A stretch of DNA of 64,000 bases, from NCBI RefSeq assembly GCF_030116705.1, contig NZ_JAOTIK010000001.1:2003001-2067000 (forward strand), read 5' to 3'. The translations under genes were made by a program, and so were the position numbers. Source of the stretch: Streptomyces sp. ML-6 (lineage in GTDB: Bacteria; Actinomycetota; Actinomycetes; Streptomycetales; Streptomycetaceae). Under the pieces are notes generated by a model. That model had not been told where the DNA came from, did no database searches, and worked only from the letters and a program-made list of their open reading frames with translations. This document shows, in pieces, positions 15,954 to 57,451 of the stretch; the stretch's first letter is position 1, and each line of letters starts with the position of its first letter.

Positions 15954-16094
15954 CCTCAGTCCCGTCAGTCCCGTCAGCCCCGTCAGCTCTCTCCGTCCCG
16001 TCAGCCTTCTCAGTCCCGTCAGCCCCGTCAGCTCTCTCCGTCCCGTCAGCCTTCTCAGTCCCGTCAGTCCCGTCAGCCCCGTCAGCCCCGTTTC
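15954..16094. repeat. Minisatellite of 9-bp units with a 45-bp higher order
   Basis: CCCGTCAGY units and CTCAGTCCC variants are repeated about 15 times. Within them a 45-bp block beginning AGCTCTCTCCGTCCCGTCAG occurs twice. The array runs into the last codons of the SDR gene, whose TGA stop (16082-16084) is itself made by a repeat unit (CTGACGGGG on the minus strand). Confidence 0.8.
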
Positions 16095-17023
16095 AGGCCG
16101 AGCACCTCCGCCGCGGCGAAGGTCTCGTTCGGCGGGCGGTCCTCGTAGTACGGGGAGATCAGCTCGTCCAGCTCGTCGAAGGTGAAGGTCTCTTTCGCGG
16201 AGTCGAACTTCGCCGCGACCCTGGGGCGTTCGACGATCGCGACCATCCCGCCGTGCACGACCAGCAGCTGCCCGTTGACCTTGGCGGCGGCCGGCGAGGC
16301 CAGGTATCCGACCAGGGGCGCGACGTGCTCGGGGGCGAGCGCGTCGAGCCGGCCGTCCTCGGGCACCTCGAAGCCCGCGAAGACGTCCTCGGTCATCCGG
16401 GTGCGGGCCCGCGGGCAGATCGCGTTGGCGGTGACGCCGTACCTGGCCAGGGCCAGGGCCGTGGAGGTGGTGAGGCCGACGATGCCGCCCTTGGCCGCCG
16501 CGTAGTTCGGCTGGCCCGCCGAACCGGCCAGGAACGCCTCCGAGGAGGTGTTGACGATCCGTCCGTGGACCGGGCCGCCGGACTCCTTGGCACGGGCCCG
16601 CCAGTGCGCGGCGGCGAAGTGCGTGGTGTTGAAGTGGCCCCTGAGGTGGACCCTGATGACGGAGTCCCATTCGTCCTCGGTCATCGAGAAGATCATCCGG
16701 TCGCGCAGGATGCCCGCGTTGTTGACCAGGACGTCGAGCTTTCCGTACGTGTCGACGGCCAGTTGCACGAGGGCCCCGGCCTGCTGGTGGTCGGAGACGT
16801 CACCGACGTGCGCGACCGCCCGGCCGCCCGCCGCCCGGATCTCCTCGGCGACCTCCTCGGCGGGGGTCGCGGACGCCTCGCCGGAGCCGTCGCGGCCCGG
16901 TTGCCCGTAGTCGTTGACGACGACGGACGCGCCCAGCCCGGCCAGTTCCAGCGCTTCGGCGCGTCCGAGGCCGCGGCCCGCACCCGTGACGATCGCGGCC
17001 ATGCCGTCCAGGGGAAGTGACAT
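16082..17023 (-). CDS. Short-chain dehydrogenase (3-hydroxyacyl-CoA type)
   Basis: A 313-residue [19 protein letters not shown] is the Rossmann nucleotide motif, NNAG is present, IVNTSSEAF has the catalytic Ser and PNYAAAKGG has the YxxxK pair. The extended C-terminus and the VVNDYG motif match the dehydrogenase part of HSD17B4-like multifunctional enzymes and the KstR-regulated SDRs of mycobacteria. It would oxidise the 3-hydroxyacyl-CoA made by the MaoC hydratase two genes upstream. It is third in a MaoC - Zn-ADH - SDR operon. The 3' end merges into a tandem repeat. Confidence 0.88.
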
Positions 17024-17075
17024 CGGAATCTCGGGGTCCTCTCAGGAGGGGAGATCGGATTTCAGGGAGGGAAGG

Positions 17076-18152
17076 TCAGATCTCGATGCAGGTGCGCAGC
17101 GACTCGCCGGTCCGCATCTGGTCGAGGGCGTCGTTGATCCCGTCGAGCCGCACCCGGTGGGTGATCATCGATTCGAGGTCGATCCGGCCGGCCCGCCACA
17201 GCGCGATGGCCCGTTCGTACGAGCGGAGCACGTCCCCTCCCCCGTACATGGAGGGCAGGATGCGTTTCTCGTCGAAGAACAGCTCGAACATGTTGACCTG
17301 GAAGTTGTCGTCCATCGCGCCCGCGCCGACGATGCAGAGGGTGCCGCCGCGCCGGGTGTTCTCGTACGCCGTGCGTGCGGTGGCCGACTTGCCGACGACC
17401 TCGAAGACGTAGTCGAAGCCCTCGCCGGAGGTGATCCGCTGCTTGGCGTCGGCGAGTTCGTCGGGGGCCAGGGTCTCCGTCGCGCCGAACCGCAGCGCCG
17501 CCTCGCGCCGGGAGGCCACCGGGTCCACGGCGACGATCTGGGCGGCGCCGTTCACCCGCGCCCCCTGGATCGTGGAGATGCCGACGCCGCCGCAGCCGAG
17601 CACGGCGACCGACGAACCGGCTTCCACCCGCGCGGTGTTGATGGCCGCGCCCAGTCCGGTGGTCACCCCGCAGCCGATCAGCGCGGCGATCTCGAACGGC
17701 ACGTCGTCGGGGATCGGTACGGCGCAGCCCGCGTCGACGACGACCTCCTCGGTGAAGGTGCCGGTGCCCGCGAAGCCGAAGACGTCCTTGCCGGGGCGCT
17801 TGAAGTTGGGCGTGCCCGCGTTCATGAAACCGGCCAGGCAGAGCTGGGTCTGTCCGCGCCGGCACGAGGGACACTCCCCGCACGCGGGCAGCCAGCAGAC
17901 CAGCACCCGGTCCCCCGCGCTCAGCCCGGTGACGCCGTCGCCGACGTCGAGGACCTCGCCCGCGCCCTCGTGGCCGGGGATGAACGGGGCGGGCTGCGGC
18001 AGCACTCCGCTCATCGCCGACACGTCGGAGTGGCACAGTCCGGTGGCCCGGATGCGGAGTCTGACCTTGCCGGGGCCGAAGCCCACCGCCTCGACGTCGT
18101 CGAGGACCTCCAGTTTGTCCTGGCCTATCTCGTGCAGCAGGGCGGCGCGCAT
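17076..18152 (-). CDS. Zinc-dependent alcohol dehydrogenase
   Basis: A medium-chain dehydrogenase of 358 residues. GLCHSDVSAM and GHEGAGEV hold the catalytic zinc ligands. CGECPSCRRGQTQLC holds the four structural-zinc Cys residues, and VAVLGCGGVGIST is the NAD-binding turn. It resembles class III/NDMA-type enzymes and mycobacterial AdhD. It oxidises an alcohol to an aldehyde; in this operon a lipid- or steroid-side-chain alcohol is plausible, but this is inference. It lies between the MaoC and SDR genes with gaps of 79 and 52 nt. Confidence 0.9.
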   Translation of the reverse strand: MRAALLHEIGQDKLEVLDDVEAVGFGPGKVRLRIRATGLCHSDVSAMSGVLPQPAPFIPGHEGAGEVLDVGDGVTGLSAGDRVLVCWLPACGECPSCRRGQTQLCLAGFMNAGTPNFKRPGKDVFGFAGTGTFTEEVVVDAGCAVPIPDDVPFEIAALIGCGVTTGLGAAINTARVEAGSSVAVLGCGGVGISTIQGARVNGAAQIVAVDPVASRREAALRFGATETLAPDELADAKQRITSGEGFDYVFEVVGKSATARTAYENTRRGGTLCIVGAGAMDDNFQVNMFELFFDEKRILPSMYGGGDVLRSYERAIALWRAGRIDLESMITHRVRLDGINDALDQMRTGESLRTCIEI

Positions 18153-18231
18153 GGTGCGGCTCCTCTCGTGGACCCGTGTCGGGTGCCCGTGCGGGGCGCC
18201 CGTGCAGGGCCCCGGAACTCGTGGAGTTGGT

Positions 18232-56609: not shown

Positions 56610-56663
56610 ACTCGGCCCCCTTCTCGCTGCGTTTCCGCCGGAGCGTAACCGCTCACGCTAATC

Positions 56664-56677
56664 TAGAACAAGTTTCA
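56664..56677. promoter_or_regulatory. KstR-type box between the GT4 operon and the TetR gene
   Basis: TAGAACAAGTTTCA fits TnnAACnnGTTnnA at all fixed positions and is nearly the same as the box at 23710. It lies 55 nt before the GT4 start and 148 nt before the TetR gene, so it may serve both. Confidence 0.7.
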
Positions 56678-56824
56678 GTCTGGATCGTTCAATGAGCTAC
56701 GAATCTACCGGCAGGTAGCGTCGGTGCAACGGCCGGATCAGGTGATTCGCGCCACCACCGGGCCCCCTGGCATGCTGTCGCCGCCGGGAGACCGAGCGCC
56801 TCCCTCCGATCGCGGACAGCAGCC

Positions 56825-57451
56825 ATGGATGGGGGACACATGACCGCGGAAGCCAGACCGGCGTTGCCGCCCCTGACCGAACGGCAGGAGGCCCGCCGCC
56901 GCCGCATCCTGCACGCCAGCGCCCGGCTCGCCGGGCGGGGCGGTTTCGAGGCGGTGCAGATGCGCGAGGTCGCGGAGGCCGCGGGGGTCGCGCTGGGCAC
57001 CCTGTACCGCTACTTCCCCTCCAAGATCCACCTGCTGGTCGCCACCATGCAGGACCAGCTCCAGCACATGCACGCGACGCTGCACAAGCATCCCCCGGCC
57101 GGGGACGACGCGGCCCAGCGGGTCGCCGACACCCTGATGCGGGCGTTCCGCGCGCTCCAGCGCGAGCCGCACCTGGCGGACGCGATGGTACGGGCGCTGA
57201 CCTTCGCGGACCGCAGCGTCAGCCCGGAGGTGGACACCGTCTCGCGGATCACGACGACGATCATCCTGGACGCGATGGGGCTGGAGCACCCGACGCCGGA
57301 GCAGCTCTCCGCGGTCCGGGTCATCGAGCACACCTGGCACTCGGCGCTGATCACCTGGCTGTCGGGGCGGGCGTCGATCGCCCAGGTGAAGATCGACATC
57401 GAGACGGTGTGCCGGCTGATCGACGTGACCCGGCCGCCGGAGGCCCCCTGA
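56825..57451 (+). CDS. TetR-family regulator, KstR-like
   Basis: A 208-residue TetR protein. The DNA-binding part RRRRILHASARLAGRGGFEA and VQMREVAEAAGVALGTLYRY then FPSKIHLLVATM closely follows, from memory, that of mycobacterial KstR, the repressor of cholesterol catabolism (also GGYEAVQMRAVADRADVAVG, then TLYRYFPSKVHLLV). The ligand domain (residues 75-205) keeps the FADRSVSPEVDTVSRI and VIEHTWHSALITWLSGRASI segments. In mycobacteria 3-oxo-cholestenoyl-CoA releases KstR from TnnAACnnGTTnnA sites; such boxes occur in this window at 23710 and 56664. The ATG at 56840 is an alternative start. Confidence 0.85.
   Translation: MDGGHMTAEARPALPPLTERQEARRRRILHASARLAGRGGFEAVQMREVAEAAGVALGTLYRYFPSKIHLLVATMQDQLQHMHATLHKHPPAGDDAAQRVADTLMRAFRALQREPHLADAMVRALTFADRSVSPEVDTVSRITTTIILDAMGLEHPTPEQLSAVRVIEHTWHSALITWLSGRASIAQVKIDIETVCRLIDVTRPPEAP

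Follow-up and report, generated by a model that had tools for sequence, protein, structure and literature searches.

Does a Streptomyces chromosome carry the regulon of KstR, the repressor of the mycobacterial cholesterol genes, and if so, what does it serve? The question is raised by a 64,000-nucleotide stretch of Streptomyces sp. ML-6, here called the window (G000:C1:2003001-2067000 within a 9.13-Mb genome), in which an earlier reading of the bare letters, the original prediction, had proposed a KstR-type steroid regulon around a TetR gene, a double acyl-CoA dehydrogenase gene and a MaoC operon. Our answer, to which we assign a probability of roughly three in four, is that a Streptomyces form of KstR controls a methylmannose polysaccharide (MMP) operon and two beta-oxidation operons, that a second repressor acts on CTGAC-N5-GTCAG palindromes, and that steroid rings play no part. 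The regulator itself, an SCO2319-type TetR protein (56825..57451, plus strand; PF17925), holds both a TetR_N and a TetR_C_20 ligand domain and is the sole full-length relative of the KstR model NF033703 in the genome, scoring 196 bits, with the next protein at 40 bits. Orthologues were found in 140 of the 150 genomes of our genus sample.

Evidence for the regulon starts with its operators. As originally predicted, the window contains the exact pattern TnnAACnnGTTnnA twice, at 23710 and at 56664 (0.07 expected; two reached in none of 100 shuffles), and these are also two of the three exact genome places of the stricter form TAGAACANGTTNYA. That the boxes are real is settled by their conservation: the box TAGAACAAGTTTCA between the TetR gene and its divergent neighbor manT (56664..56677) is exact in 29 of 30 loci, and the box TAGAACACGTTTCA upstream of the acyl-CoA dehydrogenase gene FadE (23710..23723) in all 30, far from the chance level of 0.02 in 30 expected from shuffled FadE promoters. 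These loci are the best 30 of the 140 TetR genomes and the best 30 of the 52 FadE genomes, each count including the own genome. A near match had been reported before the MaoC operon, here called the MFE-2 operon after its hydratase gene. This degenerate box, CAGAACGCGTTCCA (19200..19213), is one among ten one-mismatch copies of TnnAACnnGTTnnA in the window; because an exact KstR box, mostly TAGAACGCGTTCTA, stands in all 16 relatives with an MFE-2 gene (from 20 regions downstream of FadE), comparison of the sequences marks it as a genuine site slipped by one base in the own strain. Taken together, a KstR-type regulator with conserved operators at the TetR, FadE/thiolase and MaoC operons stands as proposed. 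The whole-genome search fared less evenly: TnnAACnnGTTnnA was found at 32 places and its reversed control at 8, yet around the remaining places (28 stretches) most boxes fell within coding sequence as called by a simple GC3 gene caller, and for this reason we dropped the idea that all exact places form one regulon.

Two further box-like sites stand apart. The third strict place, C1:3860836 (L109), is a perfect palindrome, TAGAACCTGTTCTA, directly 3' of a paaE-like gene; no gene was called downstream of it and the site could not be assigned to any gene. Elsewhere, two TTGAACGTGTTCAA boxes with a spacing of 44 bp precede the start of a gene (G000:C1:7258060 and 7258104) and are probably the operator of another regulator.

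What, then, does the regulator control most consistently? The box at 56664, originally described as lying beside the TetR gene, does so, but is closer to the divergent glycosyltransferase gene (about 55 bp) than to TetR (about 150 bp). This neighbor is manT, encoding the alpha-1,4-mannosyltransferase of MMP (55287..56609, minus strand), whose product matches PDB 7qsg, the ManT of M. hassiacum (PMC9883506), with 459 bits over residues 21-432. It is followed on the same strand by an S-adenosylmethionine (SAM)-dependent methyltransferase gene in the pMeT3 position (54413..55465, start uncertain; Methyltransf_11, with a best PDB match of merely 69 bits) and by mmpH, the MMP hydrolase gene (53346..54410), whose product matched no Pfam family and matches the solved MmpH, PDB 7qsj, with 387 bits (E 8e-115). 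A scan of named genomes using the mannosyltransferase as query returned 80 loci (78 Streptomyces, one Kitasatospora and one Microtetraspora); the TetR gene diverges from the manT-methyltransferase-mmpH operon in all 80, and 78 of these loci carry an exact box in the intergenic space. The TetR box is also retained in genomes lacking FadE (for example G006, G030, G033, G082 and G129). The most consistent target of the regulator is an acyl-CoA-related polysaccharide operon. The polymer itself has been proposed to modulate how fatty acids are metabolized. S. griseus produces acetylated MMP (PMC9883506), and work cited in the same paper concerns fatty acyl-CoA complexes of such polysaccharides. The mycobacterial cluster presented there (MeT1, MmpH, pMeT3 and ManT) shares with ours ManT and MmpH, by solved-structure match, and a methyltransferase between them, whereas the Streptomyces operon has three genes, gave no match to MeT1 and faces a divergent KstR-type regulator with its operator; the word KstR is absent from that paper's text.

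A separate mycobacterial observation concerns MSMEG_6475 of M. smegmatis, which carries a strong KstR site in a table of the 2007 KstR paper (PMC1995591) and is a few gene numbers away from the MMP cluster MSMEG_6481-6484.

The boxes at 23710 and 19200 face beta-oxidation genes. FadE encodes a FadE34-like double acyl-CoA dehydrogenase of 726 aa (21488..23668, minus strand); it shows two fused acyl-CoA dehydrogenase units and linkage to KstR, as FadE34 (ChsE3) does, and the predicted likeness is borne out by 41-51% identity to FadE-type genes adjoining KstR in other families. Behind it sits the gene for an SCP2-type thiolase / lipid-transfer protein (20249..21472, minus strand; PRK08256, 620 bits, cut-off 436). 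A second operon, also on the minus strand, comprises an MFE-2-type (MaoC) enoyl-CoA hydratase 2 (18232..19107; PF22622, PF01575), a zinc alcohol dehydrogenase (17076..18152; PF08240/PF00107; 300 bits on the NDMA-dependent alcohol dehydrogenase model, under the cut-off of 440) and a short-chain dehydrogenase/reductase (SDR) of the 3-hydroxyacyl dehydrogenase type (16082..17023; PRK07792, 490 bits, cut-off 414). In relatives, both operators are located upstream of 19107, which makes a longer MFE-2 reading frame with its start at 19227 unlikely. Domain searches confirmed all of the enzyme types that had been named, among them a luciferase-like, F420-type oxidoreductase (44271..45305, plus strand; PF00296) and an aldehyde dehydrogenase (62062..63525, minus strand; PF00171).

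Gene order across families ties the two groups of targets together. In families f4, f16 and f35, KstR and FadE34-like genes are arranged head to head, and the KstR of f4 is above the family cut-off. Family f26, in turn, shows KstR with manT, the methyltransferase gene and mmpH in six of six regions and FadE plus SDR genes within about 10 kb of KstR in five of the six, with KstR boxes before FadE (5/5) and also before manT; proteins of this family score 260-275 bits on the KstR model (203-275 bits for its KstR genes overall). In the 48 Streptomyces genomes that have TetR and FadE on the same contig, the median distance between the two is 12.7 kb, and in 47 it stays within 35 kb. The 2007 KstR paper had called SCO2319 of S. 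coelicolor a 'possible orthologue' of KstR and described synteny as absent (PMC1995591); the f26 chain joins the same partners and so provides synteny, and the f26 arrangement is, at the level of gene order, a link to mycobacterial-type KstR. Using the same pipeline, we found TAGAACNNGTTCTA before 12 of 13 KstRs above the family cut-off. Among eight KstR relatives from other families with a box-like site, one had the full exact pattern and the rest differed at one end base; one further relative (L142) had no box-like site.

Both beta-oxidation promoters contain a second palindrome, CTGAC-N5-GTCAG, which, like the MMP operon, had escaped the original prediction. Upstream of FadE it reads CTGACGGAAGGTCAG (23726..23740; exact in 26 of 30 loci and with at most one mismatch in 28), and in 21 of the 26 its center and the center of the KstR box are separated by 16.5 bp; in the MFE-2 operon it reads CTGACACATCGTCAG (19264..19278; exact in 15 of 16 relatives). 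Outside the genus, KstR-type and CTGAC sites again occur in pairs, for instance upstream of FadE in G184 and upstream of an aldehyde dehydrogenase gene in G254, G273 and G244. The luciferase-like gene, originally counted as a KstR target, turned out to belong to the second palindrome only: a KstR box was found in none of seven loci, while CTGACGTAGCGTCAG (44254..44268) is kept with at most one mismatch in six of the seven. Genome-wide, the palindrome occurs at 38 places versus one for the reversed pattern, and the 150 genus genomes hold 36 on average (range 4-70; control 0-8). Of the 35 places beyond the window, 21 are outside called genes. Seven of the 20 adjoining genes that were scanned encode lipid enzymes (acyl-CoA synthetases, a thiolase, an acyl-CoA dehydrogenase, an enoyl-CoA hydratase and an SDR); others encode flavin reductase, FMO, amidohydrolase, PNPOx, isochorismatase, CobO, Prim-Pol and NRPS proteins. 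Seven exact and five one-mismatch sites are concentrated in a 66-kb cluster (4.515-4.582 Mb) with a FadD3-family ligase, two SCP2-type thiolases, several acyl-CoA dehydrogenases, a P450 and an F420H2-type reductase. In the same line, the number of sites tracks that of acyl-CoA dehydrogenase candidates (partial r 0.39, controlling for genome size and TetR count). Searches of open-access text found SCO2319 in one paper and the second operator strings in none; both this operator and its regulator are apparently undescribed.

Several observations weigh against our reading. By position the window TetR is KstR; by score, however, it misses the family cut-off of 280 in NCBIfam. Its best PDB match (150 bits) is 3bjb, an uncharacterised TetR of RHA1, slightly above KstR itself (141 bits). 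A tree with KstR had been suggested as a check. Ours has 55 rows and no firm rooting; before it was built, 13 rows that were duplicate, truncated or unrelated were removed, along with most of the near-identical rows from the genus. In this tree the Streptomyces proteins form a clade of their own outside the f4 KstR clade. Closest to them, with weak support, is a group of paralogues on a long branch, and the branches between clades are weak in general, with long branches. A 2012 comparison of 31 genomes dates the origin of KstR to the ancestor of Mycobacteria and Rhodococcus. FadE is present in 52 of the 150 genus genomes versus 140 for TetR, so FadE is not the main job of the regulator; in G012 a distance of 519 kb separates the two genes, and G071 holds FadE with TetR undetected. 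As to the second repressor, for which we propose a TetR protein of the PF19352 type, its gene and the window TetR are 2.5 Mb apart in the own genome, and the non-lipid genes adjoining CTGAC sites comprise five of unrelated or unclear role, three for oxidoreductases or hydrolases and five without a domain.

Part of this evidence would fit a regulator that is a paralogue of KstR with a converged or kept operator, acting locally on the MMP operon, while the FadE and MFE-2 boxes are bound incidentally. The missed cut-off and the separate clade agree with it, as does the patchy occurrence of FadE set against a manT-methyltransferase-mmpH linkage that is near universal in the sample. Yet family f26 unites KstR, the manT operon, FadE34-like and SDR genes and KstR boxes at one locus, and incidental binding sits poorly with boxes retained at every FadE and MFE-2 promoter compared (30/30 and 16/16, respectively). 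We regard the paralogue explanation as unlikely and retain a KstR-type regulator of all three operons.

One genome, G070, carries two extra KstR-like genes (L102 and L103; G070:C53) with 34-38% identity to the window TetR. They sit among fadE and SDR genes and are possibly a separate, acquired island of steroid type.

Which protein binds the CTGAC palindrome? Judging from sequence comparison, the likely binder is the PF19352 TetR, whose gene (G000:C1:4568062-4568709) lies inside the 66-kb cluster and is present in 149 of the 150 genus genomes, nearly always in single copy. The main rival, and a fair one, is BldD, in which case the palindromes would be BldD boxes and the lipid genes would follow cyclic di-GMP and development, with no PF19352 repressor involved. 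The BldD box of Streptomyces, TNAC-N5-GTNA (PMC4151990), is pseudo-palindromic and agrees with our palindrome in its half-site core and in spacer length (5 bp), and CTGAC-N5-GTCAG fits it as a special case, by pattern match; compared with the BldD regulon, our palindrome fixes the flanking C and G, has many lipid-catabolism enzymes among its targets and tracks PF19352. The start of the PF19352 gene overlaps a one-mismatch CTGAC box in 30 of 30 genus loci, an overlap that the coding sequence imposes in part. This constraint is gone outside the genus, where a box with at most one mismatch stands upstream of PF19352 in all 11 loci scoring at least 145 bits (weaker loci, 1/3). The density of sites follows the gene as well: in a class-level comparison of 192 genomes (family f13, five genomes, left out; kinship uncorrected), it was 4.2 per Mb in the 27 genomes with PF19352 versus 1.3 per Mb in the 165 without, and the same difference was seen inside families f14 and f18 (p ~0.01 each; relatedness uncorrected). 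BldD boxes are centered on C[A/T]G, a center seen in only one of our 38 spacers. We therefore consider BldD improbable as the binder and keep the PF19352 TetR, which in five of the six non-genus genomes with both genes on one contig lies 5 to 74 kb from the KstR-type gene. KstR2, the regulator of C/D-ring steroid genes, is TetR-type and tied to FadD3-family ligases; its operator differs from CTGAC-N5-GTCAG, and its PDB entry matches the window TetR with merely 27 bits.

The palindrome also behaves unusually in places. Family f13 (G161, G183, G200, G215 and G230) holds 232-473 exact CTGAC sites per 4-5.5 Mb (controls 2-7), far above any regulon, in genomes mostly without a PF19352 gene; here the sites are perhaps a chromosome-organising or repeat element. 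Within the genus, G044 is among the densest, with 64 sites in 7.3 Mb, yet the KstR-type TetR and FadE are missing from it.

As for steroids, a KstR-type regulon is present and conserved in Streptomyces, but a steroid role is unsupported. No KshA orthologue was found in the genome (in a search that covered KshA but not KstD or HsaA-D, and that scored no positive-control genome), and because of these KshA tests we lowered our estimate of a literal steroid regulon. The sole KshA_C match (77.5 bits, above a low Pfam cut-off of 23.3) is a distant Rieske relative, aligning to the solved KshA with 82 bits over residues 44-208, the Rieske part, only. A published survey reports the steroid pathway to be absent from 55 of 57 Streptomyces genomes. 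Set beside the mycobacterial KstR regulon (Rv3574/MSMEG_6042; Kendall 2007, PMC1995591), the Streptomyces system shares the TetR_C_20 domain, the operator TnnAACnnGTTnnA, a box in the regulator's own promoter and, among its targets, a FadE34-type gene and SCP2-type thiolases; it differs in having three exact strict sites, no KshA orthologue found and a regulator below the cut-off, and it adds the MMP operon and the second palindrome in shared promoters. A true steroid regulon, with KstR as the sensor of a steroid acyl-CoA and enzymes that break down the side chains or rings of sterols, could claim the mycobacterial operator (the 14-mer TAGAACACGTTTCA is in the 2007 site list, PMC1995591), four sterol side-chain enzyme families (FadE34-like, SCP2 thiolase, MFE-2 and PRK07792-type SDR) and the FadD3-family CoA ligase of the second-operator cluster (826 bits, cut-off 657), but with only a distant KshA relative and the survey against it, it is the least probable explanation of all.

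From the gene identities, operators, conservation and gene order described above, we infer how proteins, ligands and substrates would fit together under a Streptomyces KstR paired with a second repressor. The TetR protein would bind as a dimer and repress at TAGAAC-N2-GTTnnA operators, its targets being the divergent manT/methyltransferase/mmpH operon (possibly together with TetR itself), the FadE34-like/SCP2-thiolase operon and the MFE-2/alcohol dehydrogenase/SDR operon, as well as the aldehyde dehydrogenase gene in some relatives. The two enzyme operons would jointly provide one complete beta-oxidation turn, of a type suited to bulky or methyl-branched acyl-CoA, and steroid rings would not be the substrate. 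If the analogy with KstR holds, the repressor would be released by an acyl-CoA thioester of the bulky kind, and the cell would then step up both the burning of such acyl-CoA and its production of a polysaccharide that is reported to form complexes with fatty acyl-CoA. The second repressor, also a dimer and most probably the PF19352 TetR, would sit on CTGAC-N5-GTCAG at the FadE and MFE-2 operons, at the aldehyde dehydrogenase and luciferase-like genes, and at many further genes of lipid catabolism. With two repressors at the FadE and MFE-2 operons, both would answer two signals.

Should this hold, the KstR family gains a function beyond steroid catabolism, a regulator is offered for the poorly understood methylmannose polysaccharide, and a candidate master regulator with its operator can be named for lipid catabolism in Streptomyces, where the regulatory signals and genes of triacylglycerol and fatty-acid catabolism were described as lacking a description as of 2017 (PMC5539140). 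All parts of the model are testable in ordinary Streptomyces laboratory strains. More tentatively, and at somewhat less than even odds, KstR may predate regulated steroid catabolism, with an ancestral role in bulky or branched acyl-CoA and MMP and a cholesterol regulon acquired later, and may work throughout the genus in tandem with an undescribed, global PF19352 lipid repressor.

The aldehyde dehydrogenase gene, finally, is a weaker member than the original prediction had assumed. Of 15 usable loci, 7 have a KstR-type box with at most one mismatch in the region from -118 to -163, and two of these boxes are exact (the L287 match, a truncated alignment, was left out); none was found before the gene in the own genome. 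Its second operator, CTGACTATCTGTCAA (63563..63577, one mismatch), is kept with at most one mismatch in 13 of the 15 usable relatives. Beside this CTGAC box, within window positions 63540-63610 of the same promoter, a further conserved element near AACTGGTATCAGTT is shared by many relatives.

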